Assembly (NCBI GenBank): GCA_949358305.1
Contig: OX442320.1
Location: 2,482,501 to 2,546,500 of the forward strand
Source: Strigamia acuminata
Taxonomy: Eukaryota; Arthropoda; Chilopoda; Geophilomorpha; Linotaeniidae
DNA: 64,000 bases
Reading direction: 5' to 3'
Made by a program: the position numbers and the translations under genes. Position 1 is the first letter of the stretch. Each line of letters opens with the position of its first letter. Shown here piece after piece: positions 18,762 to 62,538 of the stretch. The notes beneath the pieces were generated by a model. That model had not been told where the DNA came from and ran no database searches. It was given only the letters and a program-made list of their open reading frames with translations.

Positions 18762-18763
18762 CG

Positions 18764-25964: not shown

Positions 25965-28900
25965 ATGAAAAGAAATGATTGGAAGAAAGAAATTGAACGG
26001 GCCGTAAACAACGCTTCCGAGGATGACGATGAAGATCAAGTGGATTTGTTACAAATCATTGTAAACAACGAAGAGGGAAATTGGGACGAACCCAATGAAC
26101 CCGATGTCCAACCCGACGTAAGTAAAAAAAAAAAAAAAATAGAAAAAATTCAAGTATCGATAATCAAAAATACGAAATAAGTTCGTGGACTGACCACAAA
26201 CGAAAAAATAATTTAACTTTAAGTGACAAATTATCAAAATTAATCAAATACCGAAAGAAAAATTAACTTCAAAACACGTGGTCGAAAAGCACATGGCCGA
26301 CCATGACGCCATCTTGTGTTAGACGAAAGAATCTCTACAAAAATATGACAAATTAATCAACGATCCTAATATATTTATTAATATTCTAATATTTAGGACG
26401 GATATCGCACTACGTGGGGGCAAATCGACCCGAAAAGAGTTTCCGCAGGCAGCTTATGGCGCGAAGTAATCCCCATACTGTTCCGACAAGCGCTCGAAGA
26501 AGCGGTCGACTTTGAACCATGGAAAATTCGCCTTTTATTGTCCCGTGCGATCAGCCGCTACTGGTCCAGCCAGCAAACGTTGATCCACTACATGCCGCGC
26601 CAATATCAAGCAGCTTTACGGGCAGTTATCTCGAGAAATATGGACCCGCCAGCGCCAATCCCGAATCCACTAATCCGAGCCGCCTTTCCTGACGACCAGC
26701 GAGGATGGGACGTTTACGAACAATGGCGCGACGCCGAAACAGATGAAGAAAAACACCAGATCCATATGGCATATTACGAAGAAGTAAGGCGGACCGCACA
26801 TGACGAGGTTTTCAATTATCTACAGCCGGACGGTTACTCGACCGAGGAAATCAGGTTTTGGCTCCTTCAGATCCGCGAAGACCGGCCCGACCGCCCAGAT
26901 TGGAGACCGAGACACGGTTTCATCACCTCGCAACGAGCAATGCATCAATTGCATTTTTTGGGCTTCTTTGGTCGCAAACGCCAGAAAGCCGAGAAACGTC
27001 TCTCCAACGAGCACGACGAAGCAGGCTGCTCAGCGAAGAAACAATGCCTGGACAAGCCAAGCACTTCCAGCAGCGCGCAGAATAAGAAACCCGCGACAGA
27101 GAAACGCCTGGCCAAACCAAGCGCTCTCTCTCGCCTGGGAAAGACGGAGGCCCCACAAACATCGCGATTTCAATCCAGGGACGCCCCGTCAACCAGCCGA
27201 AGAAGAGAAAATGTGCGCGAACGCCCCGACCGTCGAGAGGATCAACGCAGACGCGATAGGAACCAAGAAAATTGGGACGATTATCGTAGAAATTACTTCC
27301 GACGGCGGGAAGAAAACAAGGAATCCTGGAATAGACATCGAGAGGAGTTCCTACGCGAACGTGATGAGAAAGCCCGACGTGAACGAGAGAACCTCCGGTT
27401 ACAGGACGAACGAAGAAGGAGAGGATCGGAGAGTCGCGCACGTTCATGGAAAGCGTATCGCGAAGAGGAATTACGACAGCGAGATAGGAGACGCTGTGAA
27501 GTCATCAAATCGATTTGGGACAGTCCCGAACCGATGAAGATTGACGACGAAGTGATTATCGACGAGGTCCCCGAGCAGAAGAAGATGTATACTCAGGCGG
27601 ATCTCCTCGCGGTGGTTATGAAATACCAACAAATGCAGCCGAAACCAGTCTACCGCCCGACCCCCTCGACCGCCTCGAGTCTAGAGACGGCGCCAAGTGC
27701 TTTCATCAAGCCGGAACTCTCACAGACGAGAAGCGTAACATCCAGCGTCAGCCTCCCAAGCGCCTTTCGCAAGAAAGTGATAATCGGCGCACCGACACTG
27801 AGTTCTGAAGAACAACTCAGACATCGAGAAGCTCGCTTTGGACCGACCAAAGTCGAACCTCTCCCAACTATCCCCGAAGCCTCAACTTCAACGAGAACTC
27901 CAATCGTTTGGGACAAGCCCGAACCGGAAAAATCAAGACGTCTGGTCAGATCTGTGCCTCAGCCAACGACATCCACGGGACCCAATCCGATGTTGCCAGC
28001 CCCAGCAGTCATCCAAGCCTCGACTCCAATCAACCCTTCGGAGGTAACGTTGCAACAGTTTCTGGAGGTAACGACCGTGGAGCAAGCTAGAGCGCTTTTG
28101 TGCGAGATGGACTCCTACCAACAAAACGTGATCCAAAACGTCATCACGAACCTTCAGCGGATCTCAATTGAATATACGCAGAACAAAAATCGGGATCATC
28201 CAAATTGGAATACGAGGATCGTGGTTGCCATTACCGACTTGATGTCGATTTTGCTGGCCGCCGCCACCTTCCGAAACGCACGTGTTGCTGTAGCAGCCTG
28301 GATCGTGGTGGCCCACGAGGGTTTCCAAGTTCCGCCGGCTCTCGTAGACAGCTGGACACGTCTGGTGCCCTCTGCGGCAGTAATTCGAGCCCAAATGGTG
28401 GCCCAGGACCCGGATCCAGAGGCCTCCTACCAGAACGTTCGAGCGATAATTCAACGCTCGCTCCCGTCACCTTCGGCGGCCACGCCAACCGCAGAGGCTC
28501 CGGTTCCCAGGGATCCGACGCCTCCTCCTCCGCCTCCGCCGAGGGAGAAGGGACCCTCCGAGCCACTGGCCGAACCAGTCCCGCTCAAGAAGAAGGAACC
28601 CAAGAAAAAGATGCTCCTCCCAAAGTCGAGCAAGAAGGTTCCAAAGACGACAGAGCCTCAAATCGCCGCCAGACTCAGGATGTACTTCCCAGGGTTGTCC
28701 TTTACGAAGGACACGGAGGCAAAACTACTCCAGTCTCCAGATCGTGGCTATTCTCTTTACGTCTGGATGAAGGACGCTATCGAAGCCGGAGCCGGAGGCG
28801 AGCGCTTCATCCAACATCAACGACTACTCCGAGCCCATCGCGCACCAACCAGCATCGCCGAGGCCCAAAGAATCCACCACACCAATCAAGGTATGTCGGC

Positions 28901-29087
28901 CTTCCTGCCACCAATTTGGGCCCACGAACGAACGGGAAATCCGCTGGAAGCGCCGGGACACCTACGTTTCTACTTGAATGAGAGCGAAGACCCCTCGGAC
29001 TACTCTTCAAGACTGACCACATCTCCCAACCTGGACGAACCAAGTTCGGAAGATAAGCCGAGTTATGCCGATAACTTGAAGAAATAA
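25965..29087 (+). CDS. G2 third gene (ORF3), spliced, function unknown
   Basis: Exon a is 25965-26117 (51 codons, acidic). It ends in GAC|GTAAGT, a consensus donor. The intron is 26118-26396 and ends TTCTAATATTTAG. Exon b is 26397-29087, in phase 0 and open in the same frame to the stop, giving about 947 residues. Exon b has an N-terminal helical region, a long Arg/Glu-rich stretch (many RREE, RRRD and ERDEKARRE motifs), a disordered Ser/Pro/Thr linker, a block around VVAHEGFQVPPALVDSW, a proline run, and a C-terminal block around QHQRLLRAHRAP. The last two blocks recur in G1. No signal peptide, membrane segment, zinc finger or enzyme motif is visible, so it is not an envelope protein despite its env-like place. 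The Arg-rich part suggests RNA binding (inference). The first upstream exon could also be a leader exon rather than ATG 25965. Confidence 0.7.
26118..26396 (+). other. candidate intron in G2 ORF3
   Basis: Donor GTAAGT at 26118 and acceptor TTTAG at 26392-26396 join exons in the same phase. The intron has a long A-run and in-frame stops, so the two coding parts cannot be read through without splicing. Confidence 0.65.
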
Positions 29088-29286: not shown

Positions 29287-29917
29287 TGTGGTGATTCGGC
29301 ATCACCTGAAGAAGTAATTAGCGGTGATTATTGTGTTACTAATACTCGCCACTAGAGCGCGCTAGAAATACCGACTAGACTGACTAGTCTCGTGTTTCTG
29401 CGAACCTGCATAATCGGAAGGATTTGCATATGACGTCATTTCCGGTTAGTATATAACGCCGATACTTGACCGGAAACGACACTACAGTTACCACATTTCA
29501 GCAAGAGCACCATTTACCTCACCTTTCAGGCCGTTTCACGGATTGATCGAGGACCGGTGCCCGCTGACCATCTCAACTGTACAACAGCCACATTTATTTA
29601 GCGTAGCCAATCTACGCTAGAATAAATATTCGAACGATATTCGTTTAATTCGCACGAGAAAGCGAATTCTCGCGTGTTCATAATAACACGTGGAAATACC
29701 CTAGACAACAAACATAGACCACGCGTAGGACTAAACAATTGGATCCGCCATTGTTTAGCGGCAACTCGTATTCGCAGCCGAATCCGAGGACCAACACAGG
29801 AAACATCTTGACTTATATTTGTATTAGTAAGCGTGTTTTAATAAAGCAGTATTTGAAATATATTGTATTCCCGAGTGTATTATTTATTATCTTTAACCAC
29901 AAAGTCGAATCACGACA
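29287..29917 (+). repeat. G2 3' LTR
   Basis: Same length as the 5' LTR and apparently identical. Includes the CRE/TATA promoter at 29431-29456 and the AATAAA signal at about 29840. Confidence 0.92.
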
Positions 29918-30405
29918 CGGTGTGATATTAGAACTGATTGTCAAGAGACACTGGTATTGATTCATGCTGAATCATGAACAATGGACAATGGATATGAACA
30001 AAATAACTTGTTAGTTTTCAATAACCATTCTAAAAAGAGAAACAAGCCTGCGACATCCAGAATAGAAGTTGTATGCTGAAGTTGCTGAGAGCCAGGCATC
30101 AGGGTGCTGAGCCCTAGGCCTAAGTGTTTTCGTGTTAGTGCATTGTGCCAAGGATGTTGTGAAATGGAAATCATCCAGAAGAAATCATCACTACAAATCA
30201 TCACTACAACTGAACAGTAACTATTGTGTGAAGAATAGTAGGCTTTATTTTTAAGCTATTTTTATCTTACACTTATTGTATATATTGTTGCTTTCTTAAT
30301 TATTAAACTTTTGTTAATGTTTTGAGAAACTAATGTTTTGAACATTCCAAAGAATAATGTTCCCGTGATACACCCGTCATCGCTCGGTCGGGGTGTACAT
30401 CACAT

Positions 30406-35655: not shown

Positions 35656-37626
35656 ATGGCTATTATGAGATCACCCGTCCATGTGGTTACAGTTTGCTTA
35701 ATGATCATGACTGCCAGCCACACGGCACCTGCAGATGAAAATGTCCAAGCCTTGGATAAAGGAATTGTGTTTCTTAAACAAGGAGAATTTTTGCTGACAG
35801 GAAGCCAATGGACTATCGTGATGGATGTTATGGTTGAACCATACTCACGGTTGATACGAGAAATTACTCGAGGGATAAATACTTTAGAGAAAGAGGTAGA
35901 GAAAACCTCTTTGGGATCAGAAGACTGGAAGGCTATCATTGCCCCTATGCAATTAGAGTTTGAAGATATGAAACAAAACATTCAGTTAGTAACAGATGAA
36001 ATCAGAGACATTCAGAGTGGTGTAATGTTGCCGGTCGCCCGTGAAACCAATAGAAACAAGAGAGGACTCATTGACATTGGAGGAAAAACCTTGAAATTTC
36101 TAATTGGAGTAGCGGAAGACGAGGATATTACTCAGTTAAATAAGAGAGTTGATGCCTTAAAGGAGACATCAAAGCAAGTGTTACACATTTTGGATGAACA
36201 GACCACATTGATGGATCATTTGGTACAAGGATTTCAAGAACAAGAACAACAGATGAAGCAGCTACAAGATGCTGTTGGAGAGTTAAGAAAGGGTTTACAG
36301 ATTTTTGAGCTTAATAATGCTTACGACGCAATTTTGAGACGCTTACAATTAGCATTAATGGGTGTAAGAGTAGAAGTTGCTGCTCTTAGAGAAGCTTTAG
36401 GGGAAACTGCTAAAGGAAGTTTGAGTTTGTATTTTTTACCACCTAGGATTTTGTATAATATGCTTCGCCAAATTAGAAATAAGTTACCAATAGGGTTATC
36501 TTATGTTTTACCATTGCAAAAGGATACAATTTATCGTTTTTATCAATTGTGTGTTGTGATTCCTACTGCTTTACCAGGAAAATTAAGATTGTTTATTCGT
36601 GTTCCATTGAGTTCTAATGATTTAACTTTTACGCTTTTTTATATTTTAAATTTACCAGTTAAAATAGATGATTCAAATTTAGCTTTGTATTATGATGTTC
36701 AATTTCCATATTTAGCTATTTCTAAGGATCAACAAAGCTATATGCTATTAACAAATCAGGATTTACAGGAATGTAAAGGGGATTTTATTCAATTGTGTGC
36801 TCCACAGACTATGGTTCGACGTGACACTAGTCCGTCTTGTGAATTTGCATTGTTTAGAGGAAAGATAGAAGAAGTTGGTCAATTGTGTGTTAGAAAAGTT
36901 ACTCAAGCAGTGACAGTATTCTATCGTTTGGAACAACAAGGGAAATGGGTTTATAGTGTTAAGGAACCGATCACATTTACATTGGCTTGTGGGAGGGCTA
37001 CTGACACCCTTAATACCATCATAGCGCAAAAAACAGGGATGTTAGTGGTTCCGCCTGCATGCGCAGCGATAGGAAAGGAGATTTTACTCCCGCGACATTT
37101 TCAGGGACGCCTGCAAAATGCCAATCAGAAGGTAGAAATGTTTATTCCCCCATTAGCAGAAATTTTACAGGCTGAGGATGAAGTTTTATTGAAAAGATGG
37201 GAGGGAATACAAACAGTAAACAATAGTAAGGATCAGGTTAGATCAAAATTTCAGGATGTTTCGTTAGAAAAGATAAGAATGGATATTCAAGAGGCTTCCA
37301 AGTCTTTGGATAATGAAGCAATGACTAATGGTACTCACACGTGGATATCAACAGTCATAGGCTGGGTATTACCAATCATTTGTTTAATCATAGGAATTTA
37401 TTGGTGTACTAAAAGAATTTGGAGTTGGAGGTCATCAAAGTCAAAGAGACAGAGGCCTAGTTTTTACCCAGACACAAGAATCAGATTTACACCAGTGACT
37501 ATGTCACCAAGCTCAGTAGAAAGTCAGACTGAAGAGATGGAGTCAGTTCCTCTGACCACAGTGCCAGGAACAACTCATTTAGAGTTGCCAGCAATCTCTA
37601 GAGAGTTGCCTGTCGGTTTTGATTAA
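35656..37626 (+). CDS. EV Env, F-like fusion glycoprotein
   Basis: 656 codons from ATG 35656. A hydrophobic signal peptide covers about residues 1-25. A furin-type site RNKR near 133-136 is followed by a glycine-rich hydrophobic stretch (GLIDIGGKTLKFLIG), the pattern of the errantivirus and baculovirus F-protein fusion peptide. A heptad-rich region follows (about 160-250), then a Cys-containing ectodomain, and one membrane span near 563-583 (TVIGWVLPIICLIIGIYW) with a short basic cytoplasmic tail. It acts at the envelope, and the visible features are those of a membrane-fusion protein. The frame is uninterrupted, although both LTRs of this copy are broken. Expression is not shown by the sequence. 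Confidence 0.9.
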   Translation: MAIMRSPVHVVTVCLMIMTASHTAPADENVQALDKGIVFLKQGEFLLTGSQWTIVMDVMVEPYSRLIREITRGINTLEKEVEKTSLGSEDWKAIIAPMQLEFEDMKQNIQLVTDEIRDIQSGVMLPVARETNRNKRGLIDIGGKTLKFLIGVAEDEDITQLNKRVDALKETSKQVLHILDEQTTLMDHLVQGFQEQEQQMKQLQDAVGELRKGLQIFELNNAYDAILRRLQLALMGVRVEVAALREALGETAKGSLSLYFLPPRILYNMLRQIRNKLPIGLSYVLPLQKDTIYRFYQLCVVIPTALPGKLRLFIRVPLSSNDLTFTLFYILNLPVKIDDSNLALYYDVQFPYLAISKDQQSYMLLTNQDLQECKGDFIQLCAPQTMVRRDTSPSCEFALFRGKIEEVGQLCVRKVTQAVTVFYRLEQQGKWVYSVKEPITFTLACGRATDTLNTIIAQKTGMLVVPPACAAIGKEILLPRHFQGRLQNANQKVEMFIPPLAEILQAEDEVLLKRWEGIQTVNNSKDQVRSKFQDVSLEKIRMDIQEASKSLDNEAMTNGTHTWISTVIGWVLPIICLIIGIYWCTKRIWSWRSSKSKRQRPSFYPDTRIRFTPVTMSPSSVESQTEEMESVPLTTVPGTTHLELPAISRELPVGFD

Positions 37627-47909: not shown

Positions 47910-48139
47910 TAGCTCGTTTTGGATGAAAAAAATGTGATTTAAATGTATGAATACAAATTAAAATAAATTATACCATCACGTGTGATGGTGTATAAATAAC
48001 AACGGTCTCAAATTTTTTGCACAAAAAAAGAAAAATTAATAACAATTTTCAAAAACTTCTCTGTGAATTGTTAAAAATAGTTGCAGGACGCAATCGATCT
48101 GGGTAAAACGATATTTTTAGGAGATTTTTATTTTTAGGT
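47910..48139. other. 3' flank of knottin gene 1
   Basis: AT-rich. It shares short stretches with the 3' flank of knottin gene 2 (62545-62645) and ends in the TAGGT target of G3. Confidence 0.5.
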
Positions 48140-48267
48140 TGTAGTGTTGTTAAATGTAACCGATAGAGGGCGCGAGGCGCAAGGAGGAGTGCAAGGTCAT
48201 AGAGTACATTAAACACAAGTTAGCTAGCGTTCAAGCAATGAGGTTATCCTTTATTCACTATGCTACA
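48140..48267 (+). repeat. G3 5' LTR
   Basis: TGTAGTG...GCTACA, 128 bp. Confidence 0.93.
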
Positions 48268-48268
48268 T

Positions 48269-48286
48269 TGGCGACGAGGGAAGTTT
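48269..48286 (+). other. G3 primer-binding site
   Basis: TGGCGACGAGGGAAGTTT begins one base after the LTR. tRNA not identified. Confidence 0.55.
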
Positions 48287-48346
48287 GATGAAATAGACGC
48301 GATACGAGTGCATACGAACAGTAAATGAGCGGTGTGGTTGCGGCTG

Positions 48347-51300
48347 ATGGAATTGTGCGAGGAGGAGAGTAAAACAGACGCGAAACGCGACAATATGGCG
48401 GATGAAACGGCGACGTCTGGTTTTCTGCGGTCGGCAGGCATCCCACCATTCGATGTTCATGGCGAGACCACCACTCAATCCCAGCGTTGGCAAAGGTGGA
48501 TTAGCAGGCTGGAAATGTTTATGTTGGCGGCGGGAATCAAGGACGATATGAGGAAAATGGCGACGTTACTTCACCAGGCGGGTGAGGAGGTGTTCGCCGT
48601 TTATGAGACTTTAGTGATAGAGGAGGAGGATAAGAACTATAAAACGGTAAAGGACGCATTAACTGCCTATTTTATTCCCAAAAAGAATACGGAATTTTGC
48701 ATTTATACATTCCGAATGTCCCGCCAGGAGGCGACGGAACCGTTAGATAAATACCAGATGAGATTGAGACATTTAGCGGTGGGATGCGATTTTAAGGACG
48801 ATGACCGCGAGATTAAATCCCAAATAATTCTGGGGACAAGTTTGAACCGATTACGACGACAGGCGTTGCGTGATGATACGCTGACATTGAAAGAGCTTCT
48901 GGACCTGGGCCGAGGATACGAAGCCTCGGAGTGGCAAGCAAAACAAATGGAAGGTAGCGAGAAAGAGGTAACGGGTGAAATTAACCTGGTTCGAGCATCG
49001 ACTGAGGGCAGGAGGAGAGCGAACAGTGAAACGGGGTACCGTAGGAGAGAATCGACAGGTGGCGCGGCTCGTGGCGGATTCGGCGGATCCCGTGGCTCGG
49101 GAAATAGGAAGTGTTTTAATTGCGGTCGAGCGTGGCCACACGTCACGCCACAGGACTGTCCGGCGAGGGGAGTGGCGTGTCGGGGATGCGGTAAGACGGG
49201 TCATTTCGTGCGCTTTTGTCGAGTAAAGCGAGAGGAGGGGGCGGAAGCTAATAACAAAATAAATGCAGTGAAGTGCGACTATGTCGAGGAGAGTGATGAT
49301 GAGGAGTTGTTTACAATCGGTTTGTGTTCAGACGGCAGAAAGGGGAGCCCAAAGATGCCGGAAGTGTGTTTGACAGTGGGGGAAGAGCGTAGGGATACGA
49401 GATTCATCGTTGATTCGGGAACTTCAGTGAATGTTTTGGGCAGAGAGGATTATTGGGCGATGAAGTTAAAACCGATGTTGAAGGAAAGTCGTGCTAAGCT
49501 GATGACGTATGGATCATCCGAGCCGCTGCCATTATTGGGCCGAGTGACATTAATGATCCGTTACGAAGAGATGGAATTAGAAGCGACGGCGTACGTGGTG
49601 GATCGGCCGGGTGAGTCATTGTTGAATTACGCAACGGCGAAACAACTGGGAATCGTGCAGGTGGTGAACAATATCAAGAAAACAACGTTGGAGGAGGAGA
49701 CGCCGCGGGTCTCACCGATCCACTGCGTGGACAAACCCAAAGACCCGGACCCCGACGCGATCCGCCTCTGTGTTGACGCAAGGGAAGTGAACAGAGCGAT
49801 TAAAAGGGTTAGGCACACTTCGCCGCGGTTGGAAGACATTGTGGCGCTGGCGGAGGGAGCGCGGTTTTTTTCAAAACTCGATTTGAATCATGGATTCAAT
49901 CAAGTTGAGTTAGATGCGGAATCTCGTAAATATACTGTCTTTGCGACTCATGTGGGCCTATTTCGTTTTAAAAGGCTATTGTTTGGGATAAACTCAGCTT
50001 CTGAGTTATTCCAGGACACCATACGTCAAGTGATCGAGGGTTTGCAGGGTTGCATTAACATTGTTGATGACATTTTCATTGTAGGAAAAACTGTGGAGGT
50101 ACACGACGCGGCGCTGCACGCCGTTTTGAAGCGACTGGAAAAAAAAGGACTGACTTTAAACGAGGACAAATGTGAGGTGCGCCGTGGTGAGATAGTGTTT
50201 TTTGGACATGTATTTTCAGCGGCCGGGGTCTCAATTGACCCACGAAAAGTGGAGGCAATCGATAAGATGGAAATCCCAAAATCGTCAGCGGAGGTAAAGA
50301 GTCTGCTCGGTATGGTAGTTTATTGTGCTCGTTTCGTCAGAGATATGGCGAAAATTTTGAAACCGTTGCGGGACCTGACGAAAAGTTCAAATGGGCCGTT
50401 TCGATGGGAAAAGGAACATCAGGAGGCGTGGATGTGCATAAAGGAGCAGCTCGGAAATAGGAACACGCTGGCCTATCATGACCCGACGGCAAGCACGCAC
50501 CTGACGGTAGACGCGGGGCCAAATGGACTCGGCGCAATTTTGGCGCAAATTAGGAGCGGCGAGAGCGAACCTCGAGTAGTGGCGTATGCCAGCCGGACTT
50601 TAACGGATGTAGAGAGTAGATACTCTCAAATTGAACGTGAAACCTTGGCGGCAATTTGGGCCATCGAGCACTTCTATTTATACTTATATGGAACAATGTT
50701 TACCCTTTTCACAGATCACAAGCCGTTAATAAGCATTTTCGGGAACCGCAAAGCGCGACCTTCGGCAAGGATAGAGAGGCTTTGCCTTCGAATACAACAA
50801 TATGTGTTCGAGGTAAAGTACACGAGAGGAAATTCCAACCCCAGCGATTATATGTCGCGACATACGGGGACAAGAGGCCTGAAGGACGGCGCCATGTCGA
50901 GGACCGTGGAGGGATATGTTAATTTCGTGGTCAGGACTCGTGTGCCGAAATCACTAACACGGGAGGAGATTGCGAAGTGTACAAACGAGGATGTCAGTTT
51001 GAAACTTTTACAACAAGCGCTGACACAGGAGGGAGCAGAACGTGAGAAAACATGGAAAAAAGAATGTTTAAAACCGTTTAAAATGTTGCAGGAAGAATTT
51101 ACGAATACTGAGGACGGAATCATCCTTCGGGGCGATCGAATTGTGGTGCCCGAGTCACTAAGAGACAAAGTAGTGGAGATCGCTCACCGGGGACATCAGG
51201 GAGTGGTGAAAACCAAGATGCTCTTACGCCAAAAGGTGTGGTTTCCCGGAATTGATATGCGGGTGGAGCGGCTTATAGCGGGATGCATTCCTTGCCAAGC

Positions 51301-52414
51301 AACCGTGGTGACAAAATCGAGGACCCCATTGGAGATGTCCAGTTTACCCGACCGGCCTTGGCAGAAGGTCGCAATTGACTTTTTAGGACCGTTTCCCGAC
51401 GGCAGGATTTTATTTGTCATCGTAGACGAGTATTCACGCTTCCCATTTGTGGACGGCGTGTCGTCGACGGGGGCTCGGGGCGTCATCGCGCTTCTGAGAA
51501 AGCGTTTCTCGGAGTTGGGCATCCCGGAGACGGTGAAGTCCGATAACGGACCGCCATTTTCGTCATGCGAGTTCGCGGATTTTCTGGCCGAAATGGGCGT
51601 GCGACACCATCGAGTTACGCCGCTGTGGCCCGAAGCGAACGGAGAAGTTGAACGTTTAATGAAAACTTTAAACAAAGCGATCTTGACGGCGGTTACGGAG
51701 GGACGGAAATGGCACGAGGAAGTCCACGAGTTCCTTCTAAATTACCGCGCGACTCCACATGCGACCACGGGAGTTTCGCCGGCCGACGCGATGTACGGCA
51801 GACCGATTAAGACCAGGTTACCACAAGTTTTCGTGAGGCCAAACGATGCGATAATGAGGAAGAGAGATGAGGAAAAGAAGGGGAGTATGAAGAGTTTGGC
51901 AGATGGAAAGAGGCATGTTCGGGAACACGGGCTATTGGTGGGAGACGTAGTCCTGGTGAGAAGAAGGAAGGTGAATAAACTAACAACACCGTATGATCCG
52001 GAACCGTTCAGAATTATAGCGATAGCGGGTTCTCAAGTGACAGCCAACAGGGGAAGACAGAACGTGGTGCGAAACTCATCGTTCTTCAAGAAGATACGTC
52101 AAGAGAGAGGGGAGGAATTGGAGAGAGTAAGACAGGGGGATGGGGAGATGGATGAGGATGACGGAGGGAGAGGAAGGGACCCGCAGCTGGAGACGAGTGA
52201 TGAAAGTGAGGAAAAAACGCCATTATGTGATACGGAGTCGAGAGTGGAAGAGAGAGGGGAGCAGGGAATTGTTCCACCCGCTCAGGAACCGGAGGATATC
52301 CCGGCTGTGCCGGAACCCGAGGATCCATTCGTGCTGAGGAAATCAAATAGGAAAACAAACAAGCCGTCGTGGCAAAAGGACTATGATATGTGTTGCAAGA
52401 AGAGAAAAAAGTGA
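48347..52414 (+). CDS. G3 Gag-Pol polyprotein
   Basis: One frame of up to 1355 codons. The open frame begins at a GTG at 48332; ATGs are at 48347 and 48395 (the latter, MADETATSGF, fits the usual Gag start). Gag runs to about residue 300, with a zinc-knuckle pair (CFNCGRAWPHVTPQDC, unusual spacing, then CRGCGKTGHFVRFC). Protease FIVDSGTSVNVLG follows. In RT the usual YxDD is replaced by VDD (NIVDDIFIV), as in K02A2.6-like Gypsy elements, with FFSKLDLNHGFNQVEL upstream. RNase H has TVDAGPNGLGAIL. Integrase has HHCC (HRGHQG...CIPCQ) and D, D and E in AIDFLGP, SDNGPPF and NGEVERL. No frameshift is needed, unlike the other elements here. Confidence 0.93.
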   Translation: MELCEEESKTDAKRDNMADETATSGFLRSAGIPPFDVHGETTTQSQRWQRWISRLEMFMLAAGIKDDMRKMATLLHQAGEEVFAVYETLVIEEEDKNYKTVKDALTAYFIPKKNTEFCIYTFRMSRQEATEPLDKYQMRLRHLAVGCDFKDDDREIKSQIILGTSLNRLRRQALRDDTLTLKELLDLGRGYEASEWQAKQMEGSEKEVTGEINLVRASTEGRRRANSETGYRRRESTGGAARGGFGGSRGSGNRKCFNCGRAWPHVTPQDCPARGVACRGCGKTGHFVRFCRVKREEGAEANNKINAVKCDYVEESDDEELFTIGLCSDGRKGSPKMPEVCLTVGEERRDTRFIVDSGTSVNVLGREDYWAMKLKPMLKESRAKLMTYGSSEPLPLLGRVTLMIRYEEMELEATAYVVDRPGESLLNYATAKQLGIVQVVNNIKKTTLEEETPRVSPIHCVDKPKDPDPDAIRLCVDAREVNRAIKRVRHTSPRLEDIVALAEGARFFSKLDLNHGFNQVELDAESRKYTVFATHVGLFRFKRLLFGINSASELFQDTIRQVIEGLQGCINIVDDIFIVGKTVEVHDAALHAVLKRLEKKGLTLNEDKCEVRRGEIVFFGHVFSAAGVSIDPRKVEAIDKMEIPKSSAEVKSLLGMVVYCARFVRDMAKILKPLRDLTKSSNGPFRWEKEHQEAWMCIKEQLGNRNTLAYHDPTASTHLTVDAGPNGLGAILAQIRSGESEPRVVAYASRTLTDVESRYSQIERETLAAIWAIEHFYLYLYGTMFTLFTDHKPLISIFGNRKARPSARIERLCLRIQQYVFEVKYTRGNSNPSDYMSRHTGTRGLKDGAMSRTVEGYVNFVVRTRVPKSLTREEIAKCTNEDVSLKLLQQALTQEGAEREKTWKKECLKPFKMLQEEFTNTEDGIILRGDRIVVPESLRDKVVEIAHRGHQGVVKTKMLLRQKVWFPGIDMRVERLIAGCIPCQATVVTKSRTPLEMSSLPDRPWQKVAIDFLGPFPDGRILFVIVDEYSRFPFVDGVSSTGARGVIALLRKRFSELGIPETVKSDNGPPFSSCEFADFLAEMGVRHHRVTPLWPEANGEVERLMKTLNKAILTAVTEGRKWHEEVHEFLLNYRATPHATTGVSPADAMYGRPIKTRLPQVFVRPNDAIMRKRDEEKKGSMKSLADGKRHVREHGLLVGDVVLVRRRKVNKLTTPYDPEPFRIIAIAGSQVTANRGRQNVVRNSSFFKKIRQERGEELERVRQGDGEMDEDDGGRGRDPQLETSDESEEKTPLCDTESRVEERGEQGIVPPAQEPEDIPAVPEPEDPFVLRKSNRKTNKPSWQKDYDMCCKKRKK

Positions 52415-52547
52415 AACTGTGAACTATATACTGAATTGTGATAGAACTTATTGATTGTCGAATTTTATTAATTATTGTTTTGGTGTCGAATTATTGTTAT
52501 CAAATTTAATGTTTGTCGAATTGTTCTTGATTGTTGTTGTACTCCGG

Positions 52548-52560
52548 ACAAGGGGAGGGA
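52548..52560 (+). other. G3 polypurine tract
   Basis: ACAAGGGGAGGGA directly precedes the 3' LTR. Confidence 0.8.
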
Positions 52561-52688
52561 TGTAGTGTTGTTAAATGTAACCGATAGAGGGCGCGAGGCG
52601 CAAGGAGGAGTGCAAGGTCATAGAGTACATTAAACACAAGTTAGCTAGCGTTCAAGCAATGAGGTTATCCTTTATTCACTATGCTACA
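52561..52688 (+). repeat. G3 3' LTR
   Basis: 128 bp, identical by eye to the 5' LTR. Confidence 0.93.
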
Positions 52689-52693
52689 TAGGT

Positions 52694-53166: not shown

Positions 53167-53186
53167 ATGAAAAGAGATTTGTATAT

Positions 53187-53679
53187 TGTTACGTGGCCAA
53201 ATGGCCAATAGTGACCACGTAACTTATTACTTATTTTAACTGTTTACTAAACTGAGTTAAGCTCAGTTACTAAGAGTGAGGTAAATGAAATAGAGCCAGA
53301 GTTTAAGATTGAAAACAATACAGTGTCTTTATTCTTCAAATCAAAACACTTAAATCATAAATACAAAATGTAAACTAAATCTAAACTTAAACCTAATAAA
53401 TACTCTAAGATATGATTAACACCTTGATTCAATTTGGAGGGAAACAATCACACCACGCCATTTGCTGGCTGGTGCTAACTGTTTAGAAGCCCGGGATGGA
53501 CTGAGCTCTAAGAGCCAAAGTGGCTCTTTTATACTAGAGTCACCCCCTGAGTTAATCCAGATTGACCAGCCCGTGATGTCACCATCACGTACGCTGGCTA
53601 GTGATAGATTTTGACAACTTCTTTAATTCTATCGCTGGTTTGAGCTGGTCGGCAGACGACGCAACTCAACCGCGTGACA
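53187..53679 (-). repeat. G4 left LTR (3' LTR)
   Basis: TGTTACGTGGCC...CGCGTGACA in plus orientation, 493 bp. Confidence 0.93.
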
Positions 53680-53690
53680 GCCCCCTCTTT
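53680..53690 (-). other. G4 polypurine tract
   Basis: The minus strand reads AAAGAGGGGGC directly before the 3' LTR. Confidence 0.78.
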
Positions 53691-54023: not shown

Positions 54024-55394
54024 TCATAAAAGAGGAGCCTTTAACTTCTCTTTTTCTTCTTCGAATGGTTCCAAAGTCTTCTGATGTAATTCGTAAAGAA
54101 TCCGGTGGCGTAGATGAATCGGATGCGCATGGCGCATGTAGTCCCGGTCCACCAGATAGCGCCGTGCAAAGTACAGCACCGCTGGCCCACACGAATCTGG
54201 GTCAAGCTGCTGAACTCGCGGCGGGTCCCACTGCCTCAGTCTGTGCGGGAAATAAATCCCCGCACCTGTAAAGCAGTTGTGGATGGTCTGCCATTGAATG
54301 CTTTTAGTGTCCAATGGACCCGATGGGTCGTACAAAACAATGTCCGTTGGGAATTTGGTCCAGTCAACTATCAGAAACTGCCAGTGCTCCTCAATCGGAA
54401 TTGGAAGCAGCCAAATAGGCCTCGCATTACCCGGCCGATCCTGTTTAATCAAATTTATGGCCTCAAGAAATGACTCGCGGGCCAACATCAAGGCAACAAG
54501 CTCTACAGTAAAATAACACACGTGTTTATAATATCCTGCAAGTAATTCCAAATACGAGTTAATAACACTCGCATGAACCCAAGAGCCTTTCCCCGGCTCT
54601 AAGCTACCGAGAGCTGCCATCTCATGATTTTTAATAATCATCGGTGGTGTCCCGTCCATAGTGACCGCTGCGTCATTGATCGGTTTCCAAGCGTAGTCAC
54701 GCGCGAGTTGCAATGCCACTAGTTGTTTGTCGGCATCCAACTGAACTTTATATGAGTACAAAACAGGCGGCAAGTCAAAATAAGGATCTCCATATGATGT
54801 CCTGTTGGCTAAGGCTTTCGCCTTTTGTATGTTCTTACGGATGACAGCTTCGTGTAACAGCAGCCTGTCTGCCGCTTGAAACCAAGCTTCATATATCACC
54901 TTGCCATCTGTCCCTTTCAAGTTCAGCTTGTCCACTGCAATCGCCATGTTCCTTTGCTCTAGCCTAAGTTCGCGTAGACGCTTTTCATTTCGCTTGATGG
55001 TTTTGGCGTTCTGCTTCTTCATTTCCTTAATTCCCTGTTCCGAAAATTCCTGTTTCTCCTCCTTCATCTTCTGTCTCTTCACCTTCTCACTCGCCTTTCG
55101 CTTCTCAATCTTATGCTTTTCCGCTGGCGTCAAAGGGCGCTCGTGAACCTTCGGTGCCTGTCTTTGTTCCTTACCATCCGAAAATGGTCGTTCAAACTTG
55201 ACAAAGTCCGTCAGTTTAGGAGTTTCCTTTGAGCATGACGCCGTCGCTCCCTCTTCAATCTGCTCCAGGCGAGACGTACAGGTGAATAAATCAGCGAGTC
55301 GAGTTGACGCACCCGAACGTGTCGACATTGCATCGTCCTCGTCCTCCGACTCATGGATCCTCACGTGCTTAAATTTGTTAGTCATCTCCTCCAT
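54024..55394 (-). CDS. G4 third gene: Ulp1-like (C48) cysteine peptidase
   Basis: 456 codons from ATG 55394, in env position. Residues 1-80 are acidic and disordered, and 90-150 form a strongly basic Lys/Glu-rich coiled coil. A C48 fold follows: W272 with VHASVINSYLELL (the substrate-groove motif, compare W-L-N-D-x-V-I-N), His337-Trp338, Asp356 in VLYDPSG, Gln396 and Cys402 in QLDPDSCGP. The order H, D, Q, C and the Q-x5-C spacing match SUMO/ubiquitin-like proteases and adenovirus-type relatives, so an active enzyme is predicted. No signal peptide. A T-rich tract ending in AG at 55400-55401 just before the ATG could be a splice acceptor for a separate mRNA. Possible substrates are a SUMO or Ub-like modifier on host restriction factors or chromatin, or Gag itself (inference). 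Confidence 0.82.
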   Translation of the reverse strand: MEEMTNKFKHVRIHESEDEDDAMSTRSGASTRLADLFTCTSRLEQIEEGATASCSKETPKLTDFVKFERPFSDGKEQRQAPKVHERPLTPAEKHKIEKRKASEKVKRQKMKEEKQEFSEQGIKEMKKQNAKTIKRNEKRLRELRLEQRNMAIAVDKLNLKGTDGKVIYEAWFQAADRLLLHEAVIRKNIQKAKALANRTSYGDPYFDLPPVLYSYKVQLDADKQLVALQLARDYAWKPINDAAVTMDGTPPMIIKNHEMAALGSLEPGKGSWVHASVINSYLELLAGYYKHVCYFTVELVALMLARESFLEAINLIKQDRPGNARPIWLLPIPIEEHWQFLIVDWTKFPTDIVLYDPSGPLDTKSIQWQTIHNCFTGAGIYFPHRLRQWDPPRVQQLDPDSCGPAVLYFARRYLVDRDYMRHAHPIHLRHRILYELHQKTLEPFEEEKEKLKAPLL

Positions 55395-55774: not shown

Positions 55775-58700
55775 TCAGTAGAATGCAGTGTAATCGCGCC
55801 GTGCCTGTTTACGTAGGCGGCGTGACCAGAAACTGCCAACCTCAGGTGGTCGCGCATGCGCGTCGTTGTCGACCGCACTTGCGACGCCTGGTGACGGTTT
55901 CGGAAGTTGATTTTCCTCATTTTTCGCCGGAAGTTCATCCTCGAATAAGCCTCGCAACGATATTTGATCGTCATCGTCAATGAAACGTTCCGTAGCTGCA
56001 GAAATAGGTTTGTTTGACGAATTTACGTTGTTTTTCGCGATAATTTCCTTTCCGCTGTCTATTTCCTTCAAATCCTCAGCAAATGTAACCTTTTTAGCTG
56101 TTAAAGGCCTCATAATATCTTCTGAAAGTTCTTCTCTCATTTTGTACGGTTTCAGTCGCTCTATGTTCACAATGTCCATCTTTTTGCCTGATGAACTTCG
56201 AATTTCGTAGTCATTCGGCGCTGTTCGTCGTACGATCTCATATGGCCCAGAGAATTGTGGCAAGAGCTTTTCACTCAAACCAACCTTTCTATTTGGTGTT
56301 TTCAAATAAACTAGCTCTCCTGGATCGAATTCCACATGTACTCTGTCCAAATCAAACCTTTTCTTGCTTTTCAAACCTTGTTCTTGTATTCTTTCATTGG
56401 CAATTCTCCTTGCCTCCCTGATAAATCTGGAAGTACGCAAAGTGAATTCCTTACGAGGAAGATTTAAGTTGACATCCACGTTGAGATCTGCTTCATAACC
56501 TCGTAATAAATAATACGGAGTGTAACCTGTTGTTTCATGGACTCCAGTGTTATAAGAGAAGAGAAGAAATGGCAAAAATGCGTCCCAATCGGTATGATCT
56601 TTATTTACATAGCTCTGCAACATCTTAGCTATTGTTGCATTAAATCTTTCCGTAAGACCGTTTGTTCTTGGATGGTATCCGGAAGTAGATTTGTGAAGGG
56701 ACCTAAACAATGCAGATATTTCCTTAATCATTTCATTTCTATATTCTGTTCCCTTATCACTCAGAATCTCTCGTGGGCTTCCTTCTTTCAGCATGACTTC
56801 ATAAACAAGGGCATTCGCTGCTTCAATAGCTGTGCAAGCTGGTGCTGCTCTAGCTATTGCAGTGCGTGATAAATAATCCGTAATAATGAAAACGTACTTG
56901 TTTCCTGTGTCAGATGTTGGAAAACTGCCTAACGTGTCTATGGCTACTCGTTCGAATGGTCGAGACACTGTCGACCACGGCTGCATCAATCCTTTTGGCG
57001 GTGTTGTCATGGTTTTTGCACTTGCACACTTCGGACATGAGAGTACGTAATTCCTTACGTCCCTATAAATCCTTGGCCAGAAGAAACGTGTTCTAATTTT
57101 CTTCCAAGTTCTACTCAGGCCTAAATGAGCGCCTGTAAGACCATCATGCATTTCTACTAAAACATCTTTTCTCAAATGCTGTGGAATATACAGTAATTCT
57201 TCCGTGTTCAAGGAATTAATTTTCTTCTTAAACAAAATATCGCCTTGAAGTACGTACTGCTGTAGCGGACGTCTTCTTTTGCGCGGAAGTTGCTCTATTG
57301 TCTGCAGTGATGTGATGAGTTCCATAATCTTCTGATCTTTACGCTGCTCTGCAGGTAAATCGAGATTTTCGAGCAATAATGAAGGAATAATTACTTCTTC
57401 TTCACTAATGTCCTCAGGAATCCTACTTAACGCATCGGCATCTGTATGTTTCTTGCCTGACTTATGCTGTACTTCATAATCATAGTCAACCAACTGCAGA
57501 CTCCATCGTGCTAACCTACCATTTGGATTTTTGACGCTTTTCAGCCATTGAAGTGCTGAGTGGTCCGTGATGATGGTAAACTTCTTTCCATACAAATAAG
57601 GGCGAAATTTCTGTATGCCAAACAATATGGCCAGACATTCCCTTTCTGTCGCGTTATAGTTCTGTTCGGCATTGCTCAATAACCTACTAGCATAACAAAT
57701 CACATGCTCTTGGTTGTTAAGCTTTTGCTTCAAAATGGCTCCCAAACCGTAAGCGCTTGCATCCGTCGATATGATGAAAGGCTGTGCGAAATTAGGATGA
57801 GCCAAAACTGGCACTGTTACCAAAGCTGTTCTTAGTTGTTTAAATGCTTCTTCATGAGGCGGTCCCCAGTCGAATTTCTCGTCTTTCTTCGTAAGGTTGA
57901 CCAAGGGTTTGGAAATATCAGCAAATCCTAAAATGAATTTTCTATAATATGAGCACAAACCCAAAAATCCCCTTAACTGCTTCACATTTAATGGAATTGG
58001 AAACTTTGCTACAGACTCGAGATTTCGTGGATCTGGTGAAATGCCTTCTGAATCAATCACATGTCCGAGATACCGGATGGTATCCGTCCCGAACGTGCAT
58101 TTACTTAGCTTTACCTTTAAATTCGCAATTCGCAGTTTTTCAAAGACTGAGTCCAGATCTTGTAAATGTTGTTCAAATGTTTTAGAAAAAATTATAAGGT
58201 CGTCAAGATAGGCTATACAGACTTTTCCAAGGAGGTTGCCCAATACTTTATTCATCAATTTTTGAAACGCTGCTGGGCTGTTACATAACCCCATTCCAAG
58301 GACATTAAATTCATAGTGTCCGGTTGAAGTGGTGAACGCTGTCTTCTCTCGGTCTTGTTCATTTATTTCAACTTGATGGTATCCTTGGATTAAATCCATC
58401 ATCGAGAAAAACTGGGCCCCTGCTAGTTGATCTAACGTGTCATCTATTCTTGGCAGTGGGTACACCATTTTCTTTGTAATTGCGTTCAACCTTCTCCAAT
58501 CAACACAAAACCTCCATTTACCGTCTCTTTTCTTGATGAGTAAAACTGGCGCGCTCCAGGGACTTTCTGATTCCCTTATGACTCCTTGTTCTAACAATTT
58601 TCTGGTTTCCTCAGCTTCTACTTCTTTTTCTGCAATTGAACGTCTGTACGGCTGCAAGTGAATAGGTTCATGATCACCTGTATCAATTTTATGACTAAAG

Positions 58701-59593
58701 TTGGTTACTCTTCCTAAATCTTTATCTGTCATGGCAAATCTGTCCTGATTTTTCTGAAGTAACTGCTTCATTTGTTGCTGTTGGTTCTTGGTCATCTTAC
58801 CTTCGGCTATTGCGGAGTCAAAATCAAAGCAATTTGCTTGTTTTTCATTCGACAACTCAACAACCTTAGAACTTGAGGAGTTAGAGTCAAAACAATTTGC
58901 TTGTTTTTCATCCATCAACCCAATATCAATAATATAATGTGCCTTACCAATCGCAGACTTCTCTTGCAGAAAAATGGACTTAGATGTTGGATTCGCCACT
59001 CGTATTACGCCTTTGCCGTTCTCAAACTTTGTTAACGTCTTACAACACATAATACCAAACCTATCAATTACATTTCCTAAAGGTTCCAAAAACATTTCTT
59101 TCGTTAAAGCTGTGCTTAGGTTAACTGGAACTGCACATTCATGCATTGGTGGAATTGCTATGCCTTTTGTCACTCTTGCTACGTAATTCTGGTCCACATA
59201 CGTCTTATTCATCGGGAAAACTGCTTCTAATCCACTTTTTCGGCCCACAAAGATTTTTTGTAAATCGTAATCAACAACACACCTCGCAAAAGTCATAAAT
59301 GGATCCCCCAATAAAAGTTGGTAATTGAAACTTCTAACTATCAATACTTCTACTGAATACTGCAATTGTCCTATTTGAATGTTCAAATTTGTTTTACCCA
59401 CTGGAGTTATTAAATCAGTTCCTATTCCTCGTAATCTAACGTTAGGTGTAGGTTGATAATCCAACTGTAATATTTCTGCTAACTCTTCACTCAAAATGTT
59501 CTTCTTAGCTCCAGTGTCCATGACTGCCTTTATTTCCAAATTCTTTACAATTACCGGGATTTCCAACAATGATTCCGAAATTTTTATATCCAT
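55775..59593 (-). CDS. G4 Pol polyprotein (PR-RT-RNase H-IN)
   Basis: 1272 codons from ATG 59593. The frame is open further upstream across the gag stop, in the -1 frame, so it is probably made as Gag-Pol. Protease AVMDTGAKKNIL is near residue 27. RT has YLDDLIIF, RNase H STDASAYGLGAIL, and integrase an HHCC domain (HDGLTGAHLG...CPKCASA) with D, D and E in AIDTLGSF, LSDKGTEYR and NGLTERFN and a GPY/F domain (FSGPYEIVRR). All catalytic residues are present. Closer to EV-type than to G1/G2-type Pol by eye. Confidence 0.94.
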   Translation of the reverse strand: MDIKISESLLEIPVIVKNLEIKAVMDTGAKKNILSEELAEILQLDYQPTPNVRLRGIGTDLITPVGKTNLNIQIGQLQYSVEVLIVRSFNYQLLLGDPFMTFARCVVDYDLQKIFVGRKSGLEAVFPMNKTYVDQNYVARVTKGIAIPPMHECAVPVNLSTALTKEMFLEPLGNVIDRFGIMCCKTLTKFENGKGVIRVANPTSKSIFLQEKSAIGKAHYIIDIGLMDEKQANCFDSNSSSSKVVELSNEKQANCFDFDSAIAEGKMTKNQQQQMKQLLQKNQDRFAMTDKDLGRVTNFSHKIDTGDHEPIHLQPYRRSIAEKEVEAEETRKLLEQGVIRESESPWSAPVLLIKKRDGKWRFCVDWRRLNAITKKMVYPLPRIDDTLDQLAGAQFFSMMDLIQGYHQVEINEQDREKTAFTTSTGHYEFNVLGMGLCNSPAAFQKLMNKVLGNLLGKVCIAYLDDLIIFSKTFEQHLQDLDSVFEKLRIANLKVKLSKCTFGTDTIRYLGHVIDSEGISPDPRNLESVAKFPIPLNVKQLRGFLGLCSYYRKFILGFADISKPLVNLTKKDEKFDWGPPHEEAFKQLRTALVTVPVLAHPNFAQPFIISTDASAYGLGAILKQKLNNQEHVICYASRLLSNAEQNYNATERECLAILFGIQKFRPYLYGKKFTIITDHSALQWLKSVKNPNGRLARWSLQLVDYDYEVQHKSGKKHTDADALSRIPEDISEEEVIIPSLLLENLDLPAEQRKDQKIMELITSLQTIEQLPRKRRRPLQQYVLQGDILFKKKINSLNTEELLYIPQHLRKDVLVEMHDGLTGAHLGLSRTWKKIRTRFFWPRIYRDVRNYVLSCPKCASAKTMTTPPKGLMQPWSTVSRPFERVAIDTLGSFPTSDTGNKYVFIITDYLSRTAIARAAPACTAIEAANALVYEVMLKEGSPREILSDKGTEYRNEMIKEISALFRSLHKSTSGYHPRTNGLTERFNATIAKMLQSYVNKDHTDWDAFLPFLLFSYNTGVHETTGYTPYYLLRGYEADLNVDVNLNLPRKEFTLRTSRFIREARRIANERIQEQGLKSKKRFDLDRVHVEFDPGELVYLKTPNRKVGLSEKLLPQFSGPYEIVRRTAPNDYEIRSSSGKKMDIVNIERLKPYKMREELSEDIMRPLTAKKVTFAEDLKEIDSGKEIIAKNNVNSSNKPISAATERFIDDDDQISLRGLFEDELPAKNEENQLPKPSPGVASAVDNDAHARPPEVGSFWSRRLRKQARRDYTAFY

Positions 59594-59679: not shown

Positions 59680-60684
59680 TCAGTTTTCCGTCTGTTGTTG
59701 GGTGTTGACTGTAGTGCTAGGACCTTCTCTTCTACGTCTTCTAGGTCTTCCAGCAGTACCACCTCTATCCTGTTGGTACCTTGGTGGATTATAAAACTCG
59801 CAAGTAAAGTGATGATAGCATCCACAAGATCGAGTATTACTATTATTACTATTATTGTTATTATTGTTAGTATTATAATTTTGACTACCACCTCTATTAC
59901 CACCTCTCTGAAAATTCTTATACTGAAAATTCTGACCTCCTCGCTTCATTGGTGTATACCACTGGCTTCCTATCAAGATGGGTTCTTCTGACGTCGGTTC
60001 CACCGTCTCAAGAGCTAATAACCGTTGCCTTAACATTGCATTTTCAGCTAAAAGCTCGGCGTGGGTTAATGAGGTTTCCACAGTTCCACTCAGTTTACCT
60101 GATGTCGCTGGAGTTACCTTTTCATCCACCACCTTTTTGAAAAGTGAGAGCAGTAAATCCGCTGGATCCTTAACCTTGTGGGTCTCGTACAACTTCACCC
60201 TCTGTTCCATCTCTGCCAGTGTGGATGGGAATACTGTAATTATCATCTTCTTCATATCGGGTTTCATACCTTGATAAACATAATTAATCTTTTGATGTTC
60301 AGTGAGCTCCGGCCTTACAAAAGCACACTCAGCCAAAACTTTTTTCATATAGGCATCTGCTGTTCCTTCTGTATGCGACATAAAATGAAGAGTATTTAAA
60401 ACATTTTCCTGGCCTCTACGAAATTTATCTTCTAGTTGTGGTTTCCACTCTGTCCAAGTCCATGTTGGATTTTTCTTGAGCAATTCCACATACCACGCCA
60501 GACCATCAGTTTTTAACGCTAATGGCAATTGTTTAACTCTCTCATCATCTGTGCCTATTGTTGCTTCGTAAGCCACGAGCCACTGATCAATATTCCCTTT
60601 TTCCGTATCAAAACAAACGACAGGTCGCTTTTGTATCATCAAACTCTTAAATAAATCAGTTAGTACTGCCGTTGGGTCCGCCAT
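59680..60684 (-). CDS. G4 Gag
   Basis: From ATG 60684 (AAGATGGCGG context) the protein has 334 residues. The capsid domain has WLVAYEATIG, LKTDGLAWYVELL, FRRGQENVLNTLHFM and YVYQGMKPDMKKMI. The C-terminus is Asn-rich with a Cys/His cluster (CGCYHHFTC) in place of a canonical CCHC knuckle, then a basic tail. The same frame is open for 118 further codons upstream (to 61038) with no ATG, so a non-AUG or spliced start is possible. The stop is preceded by G GAA AAC, a non-canonical slippery candidate; no clear hairpin follows. Confidence 0.82.
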   Translation of the reverse strand: MADPTAVLTDLFKSLMIQKRPVVCFDTEKGNIDQWLVAYEATIGTDDERVKQLPLALKTDGLAWYVELLKKNPTWTWTEWKPQLEDKFRRGQENVLNTLHFMSHTEGTADAYMKKVLAECAFVRPELTEHQKINYVYQGMKPDMKKMIITVFPSTLAEMEQRVKLYETHKVKDPADLLLSLFKKVVDEKVTPATSGKLSGTVETSLTHAELLAENAMLRQRLLALETVEPTSEEPILIGSQWYTPMKRGGQNFQYKNFQRGGNRGGSQNYNTNNNNNNSNNSNTRSCGCYHHFTCEFYNPPRYQQDRGGTAGRPRRRRREGPSTTVNTQQQTEN

Positions 60685-61038
60685 CTTGGATACTATTCCT
60701 TTTGATGTGGATCCTTGTGTATTAGTTTTTAATAAAGGTGTTTGTATAGTCTTTATTGGTGTTAGTAACTCAAAAATCGATTTCAACTCTTTTGGTTTTA
60801 TTAATTTCAAAGGTGAGGACAAATCAAGTTCTTGTTGCGATAATGAATCTTGAAATTGATCTTCCTCCTTTATTTCAACAACTGGATCTTCCTCCTTTAC
60901 TTCCGATCCCGAATGTGATTTTGATTTCTTCCTAGTTTTGGTTATATTAGGGTTATCCACTAATCTTTGTAATTCTTGGTTCTGTAAATCTAGTAAACCG
61001 TCCGTTTGTGTCTGTGTAAGCTTCACTGGTTTATCCAC

Positions 61039-61795: not shown

Positions 61796-62288
61796 TGTTA
61801 CGTGGCCAAATGGCCAATAGTGACCACGTAACTTATTACTTATTTTAACTGTTTACTAAACTGAGTTAAGCTCAGTTACTAAGAGTGAGGTAAATGAAAT
61901 AGAGCCAGAGTTTAAGATTGAAAACAATACAGTGTCTTTATTCTTCAAATCAAAACACTTAAATCATAAATACAAAATGTAAACTAAATCTAAACTTAAA
62001 CCTAATAAATACTCTAAGATATGATTAACACCTTGATTCAATTTGGAGGGAAACAATCACACCACGCCATTTGCTGGCTGGTGCTAACTGTTTAGAAGCC
62101 CGGGATGGACTGAGCTCTAAGAGCCAAAGTGGCTCTTTTATACTAGAGTCACCCCCTGAGTTAATCCAGATTGACCAGCCCGTGATGTCACCATCACGTA
62201 CGCTGGCTAGTGATAGATTTTGACAACTTCTTTAATTCTATCGCTGGTTTGAGCTGGTCGGCAGACGACGCAACTCAACCGCGTGACA
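61796..62288 (-). repeat. G4 right LTR (5' LTR)
   Basis: 493 bp, apparently identical to the left LTR. Confidence 0.93.
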
Positions 62289-62538
62289 ATATCCGTTTGG
62301 GTTTTCTATTCCTCGTTTTGGCAGTCACTGAATTGTAGGTTAAAATCAATCAATTTGAATAACATTATCGATAAAATTAATTCATAATTTCTGTTTTATT
62401 CATTTTTTTATTTCTTTAAAAAAAAGTATTGCCGGTGTCAGTGGATGTGGCAGATTTCGAGCAAATTGCAAAACGAAGGATGAGTGTTGTTCAGGCTTTA
62501 GGTGTGAGATTTACGATTATGGTGGGAAATGTGTATAG

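Follow-up and report, generated by a model that had tools for sequence, protein, structure and literature searches.

We report a gene for a predicted cysteine protease of the C48 (SENP/Ulp1-like) type in a Ty3/Gypsy retrotransposon of the centipede Strigamia acuminata. It is the third open reading frame (ORF3) of an element on the minus strand of the 64,000-nucleotide stretch analysed here (the window, which is part of contig C9; the genome comprises 157 contigs totalling 237.5 Mb) and lies between pol and the 3' long terminal repeat (LTR), i.e., in the env position. ORF3 is a resident gene of a Gypsy lineage, not a chance capture, and it has been lost at least three times, in families A, B and C of the related copies (the families are lettered A to G, L065 standing for G). 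Judging by sequence and by analogy with other transposons, we presume, with a probability of about 45%, that its product may act in trans on proteins of the host, by way of SUMO (small ubiquitin-like modifier) or a related modifier.

A preliminary description of the window, made from the sequence, had proposed an intact third gene of 456 residues in the env position of a Gypsy copy with identical LTRs. This is exact: at 54024-55394 (-) ORF3 runs from ATG to stop with zero internal stops. The residues named in that description (W272, His337-Trp338, Asp356, Gln396 and Cys402) are at the positions given for them, so that the catalytic His, Asp and Cys and the oxyanion Gln follow one another in the C48 order with the Trp motif before them. 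The N-terminal part is indeed basic (residues 1-165, pI 9.4).

The assignment to C48 comes from a profile search. Alignment A1 comprises ten representatives of ORF3 from the same genome, less than 90% identical; its profile against the PDB retrieved SENP1 (6.8e-10), SENP5 (6.7e-8), SENP2 (5.5e-7), Ulp1 (1.3e-4), SENP3 (1.6e-4) and XopD (1.7e-3). C48 enzymes occupy 17 of the 22 rows, and the other five have E>=1.5. In the alignment of A1 with SENP1 the blocks of the Trp motif, His-Trp, Asp and Gln...Cys-Gly match up, and the Pfam family PF02902 is found at E<=1 in eight of the ten members (best 1.2e-4). In this way the profile search supports the C48-type domain of the preliminary description. 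With human SENP1 (6nnq) and yeast Ulp1 (1euv), ORF3 shares the Trp motif, His-Trp, Asp, Gln and Cys-Gly, in the same order and in alignment. It differs in having SCGP where SENP/Ulp1 have DCG, in a basic N-terminal half that recurs across families and has no Pfam match at the E-value limit, and in being encoded by an LTR element. A hidden Markov model (HMM) of the domain matches frames at the other PF02902 loci of the genome (best E=3.2e-7, 561 frames); an HMM of the N-terminal part gave nothing below 0.23 on frames at these loci.

The gene is not limited to this copy. A search of the genome with the ORF3 protein, in which 93 of 679 candidates were scored and a few copies yielded two matches, gave at least 95 matches; 74 of 95 are stop-free within the match, and the identities fall into groups of about 96-100, 67-72, 46-50, 40 and 33-38%. 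The ORF was found at 47 of the 48 loci L024-L071 (two of the 47 are the same copy). Thirty-five relatives of at least 440 residues were aligned, and 12 partial or broken ones were left out; among the latter, the C12 copy has an in-frame deletion of approximately residues 263-296, by which the Trp motif is lost. W272, H337, W338, D356, Q396, C402 and G403 are invariant in all 35; at D400, 34 have D and one has E. The preliminary description had allowed for an ORF confined to one copy and for catalytic residues not conserved elsewhere, and neither is observed. Two scans of viral contigs gave no relatives of the ORF3 protein.

It could be proposed that the catalytic site is kept while the selected role is binding, e.g., the recruitment of a SUMO-modified host protein, since invariant residues occur outside the catalytic ones as well. 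However, binding alone would not require the invariance of Cys, His, Asp and Gln that all 35 relatives show; we consider this reading very improbable.

The element extends from 62288 to 53187 on the minus strand. Both LTRs (493 bp) are identical, with TG...CA ends and ATAT on each flank, and gag (452 residues), pol (1272 residues) and ORF3 use three different frames, with pol and ORF3 separated by about 380 nt. According to Pfam, Pol contains an aspartic protease, reverse transcriptase, ribonuclease H (RNase H), the zinc-binding and core parts of the integrase and a p58 C-terminal (GPY/F-type) domain; a few of these matches, e.g., rve, are under the Pfam cut-offs. The LTRs, gag, the protease-reverse transcriptase-RNase H-integrase order in pol and the short probable target duplication are those of Ty3/Gypsy. 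The features are as follows.

54024..55394, minus strand: ORF3, 456 residues, basic N-terminal part and C48 (SENP/Ulp1-like) domain, predicted (ORF, motif, profile search)
54057..54656, minus strand: C48-like domain, approximately residues 247-446 (W272, H337, D356, Q396, C402), limits approximate
55775..59593, minus strand: pol, 1272 residues, with aspartic protease, reverse transcriptase, RNase H, integrase and p58 C-terminal domain (ORF, Pfam)
59680..61038, minus strand: gag, 452 residues, GTG start; Ty3_capsid match weak (E=0.0024, under cut-off)
53187..53679, minus strand: 3' LTR, 493 bp, same sequence as the 5' LTR
61796..62288, minus strand: 5' LTR, 493 bp
53680..53690, minus strand: purine tract abutting the 3' LTR, role inferred (read in the sequence)
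53183..53186, no strand: ATAT, left half of the probable target-site duplication
62289..62292, no strand: ATAT, right half of the probable target-site duplication

In five of five copies of families B and C (L031, L032, L037, L038, L040) the 3' flank that follows the LTR starts with NTAT, and in the window copy with ATAT, which is a possible insertion preference.

ORF3 has descended together with pol. A homologous Pol C-terminus stands directly upstream of ORF3 in copies of families A-F; for L033 and L067 it was not seen within the upstream flank examined. Similarity in ORF3 is correlated with similarity in the pol tail, both among nine copies (Mantel r=0.90, p=4e-4) and with one copy per family (r=0.85, p=0.01, six families). 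Family D is a partial exception: with family A it shares 72% identity in the pol tail (C: 64%) but 40% in ORF3 (C: 48%). For the spacing of gag and ORF3, 40 of the 95 ORF3 rows were entered (those of at least 46% identity minus one fragment, plus some of family D), as were 83 of the 95 gag rows, the 12 partial ones being excluded. The two starts lie 5636-5668 nt apart in eight copies from families A and B and 5670-5691 nt apart in three copies of family D. Of 11 family C copies, eight have 5930-5958 nt, and the remaining three have 5758, 5782 and 6489 nt. No gag is listed for 17 of the 40 ORF3 rows.

The preliminary description had proposed a check by the ratio of nonsynonymous to synonymous substitution rates (dN/dS) across copies. 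With the Nei-Gojobori method (NG86) the ratio is defined for 17 of 22 pairs and ranges from 0.04 to 0.39 for ORF3; it is at most 0.29 in 16 of the 17, and the highest value belongs to a pair with very few changes. In the same 17 pairs the protease part has 0.00-0.14. Five pairs of the pol C-terminus have 0.05-0.32, so the constraint on ORF3 is about equal to that on the pol C-terminus. These low ratios imply that ORF3 is useful in the copies that keep it.

One could suppose that a host gene was captured by chance in a single copy, or that the motif itself is due to chance; the single-sequence Pfam score under the cut-off and the sub-lineages without ORF3 would agree with this. It is, however, contradicted by relatives in divergent families, the link to pol in six of them, the invariant motif and the low dN/dS. 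We therefore take ORF3 to be resident in the lineage and regard chance as practically negligible.

The losses were traced with the LTR as a DNA query (40 of 141 candidates scored). At least five LTR pairs with ORF3 are spaced 8.5-8.6 kb, and a sixth is 21 kb apart; at least seven shorter pairs are spaced 7.17-7.21 kb. One of the shorter pairs, L072 (contig C5, family A, partly read), has a pol frame open over its last 828 residues, at 98% DNA identity. Its deletion of 1425 bp takes away 191 nt before ORF3 and the first 411 codons, Cys402 included, and the ends of the deletion share 3 nt (GCT). The junction recurs at 12 places with at most three mismatches (control 0). Among the 17 family A gag matches entered (95-100% identity), six have ORF3 downstream (one is the broken C12 copy), seven have the junction and four have neither; in the seven with the junction, gag is stop-free. 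Family B has a different deletion in L074, which removes 418 codons together with the 73 nt preceding ORF3 and whose junction occurs at five places (control 0). In family C the entire ORF3 is gone from L073. Four LTR pairs have the L073 spacing of 7.46 kb, and L073 is the one of them that was read; beside them, ORF3-bearing pairs with family C LTRs are found, four at 8.97-8.99 kb and one at 8.45 kb, and further family C pairs at 7.3-7.84 kb. Since each of the three copies read has breakpoints of its own, we count at least three losses of ORF3. Many other gag copies are without an ORF3 match; the candidates were scored in part, and this does not prove absence.

We considered whether the ORF3-less copies of family A could be reverse-transcribed spliced RNA and rejected this, as there is no GT-AG at the ends of the deletion and GCT is shared instead. 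A T-rich stretch and an AG precede ORF3 in most of 20 copies, which would suit a spliced mRNA; we make no use of it because the DNA is AT-rich, L056 is without it and there is no control. L056 (G000:C135:70400-72400), of family D, differs from L054 and L055 in the stretch between pol and ORF3 and is without their T-rich part. That a leader is joined to ORF3 at an AG in L056 was also rejected: what lies upstream is the pol C-terminus. At G000:C3:3641483-3655195 three successive LTRs are spaced by exactly 6601 nt with two ORF3-deletion junctions between them, probably a tandem array with shared LTRs.

As the ORF3-less forms recur at several places in three families, ORF3 is not needed in cis. 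Thus the claim of the preliminary description that ORF3 helps the element holds insofar as the gene is useful where it is kept, and does not hold for the copy's own needs. Where forms that retain gag and pol multiply after repeated deletion of a gene that is under purifying selection, a copy can do without having that gene itself. This leaves two possibilities: the product benefits all copies in the cell, or it is used at a stage beyond ordinary transposition within the cell.

The second possibility would make ORF3 comparable to env: a gene for release, spread between cells or hosts, or a particular tissue, which is dropped when a sub-lineage becomes purely intracellular. ORF3 occupies the env position, a neighbouring Gypsy in the window has an env of the baculovirus F type there (E=1.4e-34), and the ORF3-less forms multiply. 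Env-less endogenous retroviruses are reportedly superspreaders. On the other hand, the domain is a protease with its catalytic residues kept, and no envelope family is among the Pfam matches of the window ORF3 and the ten A1 members (a transmembrane predictor was not applied). ORF3 is thus unlike the envelope glycoprotein in the ORF3 of errantiviruses, and the Baculo_F env belongs to the other element. We regard an env-like role as unlikely.

Viral proteases of the related clan-CE type process viral precursors. By the same token ORF3 could trim Gag or Pol, or free Gag or integrase of a modifier, and another copy could supply it; its descent together with pol would be natural then. But Pol already has an aspartic protease domain, and in the ORF3-less forms that multiplied the gag frames are open, as is pol where it was read. 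A function directed at proteins of the element itself seems to us still less likely than an env-like role.

We prefer action in trans on host proteins. An ancestor of the Gypsy lineage would have gained the C48 protease gene downstream of integrase and before the 3' LTR, and would have passed it on with pol ever since. The protein would probably release SUMO or a related modifier by cutting just after the C-terminus of the modifier; its targets would most likely be host proteins, with its basic N-terminal part as a putative targeting region. The removal of SUMO would then weaken the SUMO-dependent silencing of the element. The preliminary description had suggested that SUMO is removed from silencing factors or from Gag; we infer that silencing factors may be the target. 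A product acting in trans would be available to all related copies within a cell; this would account for the spread of ORF3-deleted copies beside ORF3-bearing ones. It is tempting to go further and to see in ORF3 an anti-silencing enzyme that is a public good, and in the deleted forms of families A, B and C repeatedly evolved cheaters; this extension is tentative, and we consider it doubtful.

As far as the available parts of the sources go, SUMO-dependent silencing is one of the means by which eukaryotes restrain transposons (PMC8131101, PMC8585004). In yeast without the SUMO-conjugating enzyme or two SUMO ligases, an assay of Ty1 expression is significantly up (PMC8585004); in C. elegans, Argonaute-directed silencing requires SUMOylated HDAC1 (PMC8131101). 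The accessible portion of a review (PMC13317346) describes how Vandal elements, whose VANC protein bears a Ulp1 domain, cause related copies to become hypomethylated.

From the window sequence alone the C48 assignment is less firm: the window ORF3 matches PF02902 at E=0.05 (13.9 bits, the curated cut-off being 20.7), and phmmer with it against the PDB found no C48 entries. Single-sequence AlphaFold2 (AF2) predictions for 292 and 200 residues of it have a mean pLDDT (predicted local distance difference test) of 36.2 and 34.8. Several points weigh against our proposal. The catalytic Cys is preceded by Ser (Ala in L065), in contrast to the usual Asp of SENP/Ulp1, so that SUMO is possibly not the substrate. 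The repeated loss of ORF3 fits an env-like function equally well. Finally, the role of the Ulp1 part in the hypomethylation by Vandal is unknown according to the review cited (PMC13317346, as available in part).

If the proposal is true, a SUMO-type protease of the retrotransposon's own would be a direct counter-weapon to silencing. Moreover, the copies that keep ORF3 and those that lost it independently occur together in one genome, which makes gene sharing between transposon copies testable; this question is usually just modelled.

Enzymes as a third ORF, and Ulp1 domains in other classes of transposons, are already known. The LTR retrotransposons Vesta and Juno of bdelloid rotifers carry an enzymatic ORF3; by the available part of the source, it is a captured enzyme gene after pol, with gains and losses among families (PMC5408684). 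The element studied here has the same arrangement, a separate enzyme-like ORF between pol and the 3' LTR across related families. The enzymes of Vesta and Juno are a GDSL esterase/lipase and a DEDDy exonuclease, unlike C48, and "Ulp" has no occurrences in the text (PMC5408684). Ulp1 domains occur in the DNA transposons Ginger1 and Mutator (PMC2836005) and in Vandal/KIU (PMC13317346), and the Vandal protein bearing the domain is a trans-acting anti-silencing factor; so far as the partial texts tell, the domain of Ginger1 is fused to the transposase, whereas our ORF3 is separate. The non-LTR retrotransposons NeSL and Utopia-1_TSP have a Ulp1-like cysteine protease (PMC4640811), which, in the part of that paper at hand, is the N-terminal domain of a single protein, with no LTRs and no gag-pol-ORF3 layout. 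The gene described here is distinct from both groups: it forms an ORF of its own, and its element has LTRs, gag and pol. Ulp1 does not occur in a note on the accessory domains that retrotransposons carry (PMC6338049). Among the open-access papers listed by our searches, no title or start of an abstract reports an LTR retrotransposon in which a C48 gene forms an ORF of its own; Repbase lies outside this search, which does not prove absence.

The window contains further Gypsy elements. One, with LTRs at 18131-18763 and 29287-29919, has a third ORF of 849 residues behind pol (26538-29087, +) with no Pfam match at E<=0.1; this ORF is a second occupant of the env position, besides the C48-like ORF3. 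Another has the baculovirus-F-type env mentioned above at 35656-37626 (+) (PF12259), and of the pols in the window that were compared, its own most resembles the pol of our element (38% over 911 residues). A Gypsy at 48137-52692 (+) has gag and pol in one frame of 1360 residues, and its terminal repeats are short, about 132 bp.

Elsewhere in the genome PF02902 has 29 matches, the window ORF3 not included. We looked among them for the same arrangement and rejected L004, L006, L007, L009, L011 and L012, where the stretch examined has no Gypsy pol followed by a separate ORF3. Several of these six look like Mutator-like or other DNA transposons. Copia-like ORFs are found some kb away from L009 and L011. 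L006 and L007 (contigs C1 and C4), L009, L011 and L012 have DNA-transposon-like proteins with Ulp1-type domains, and a frame of 1075 residues occurs six times with an equal score.
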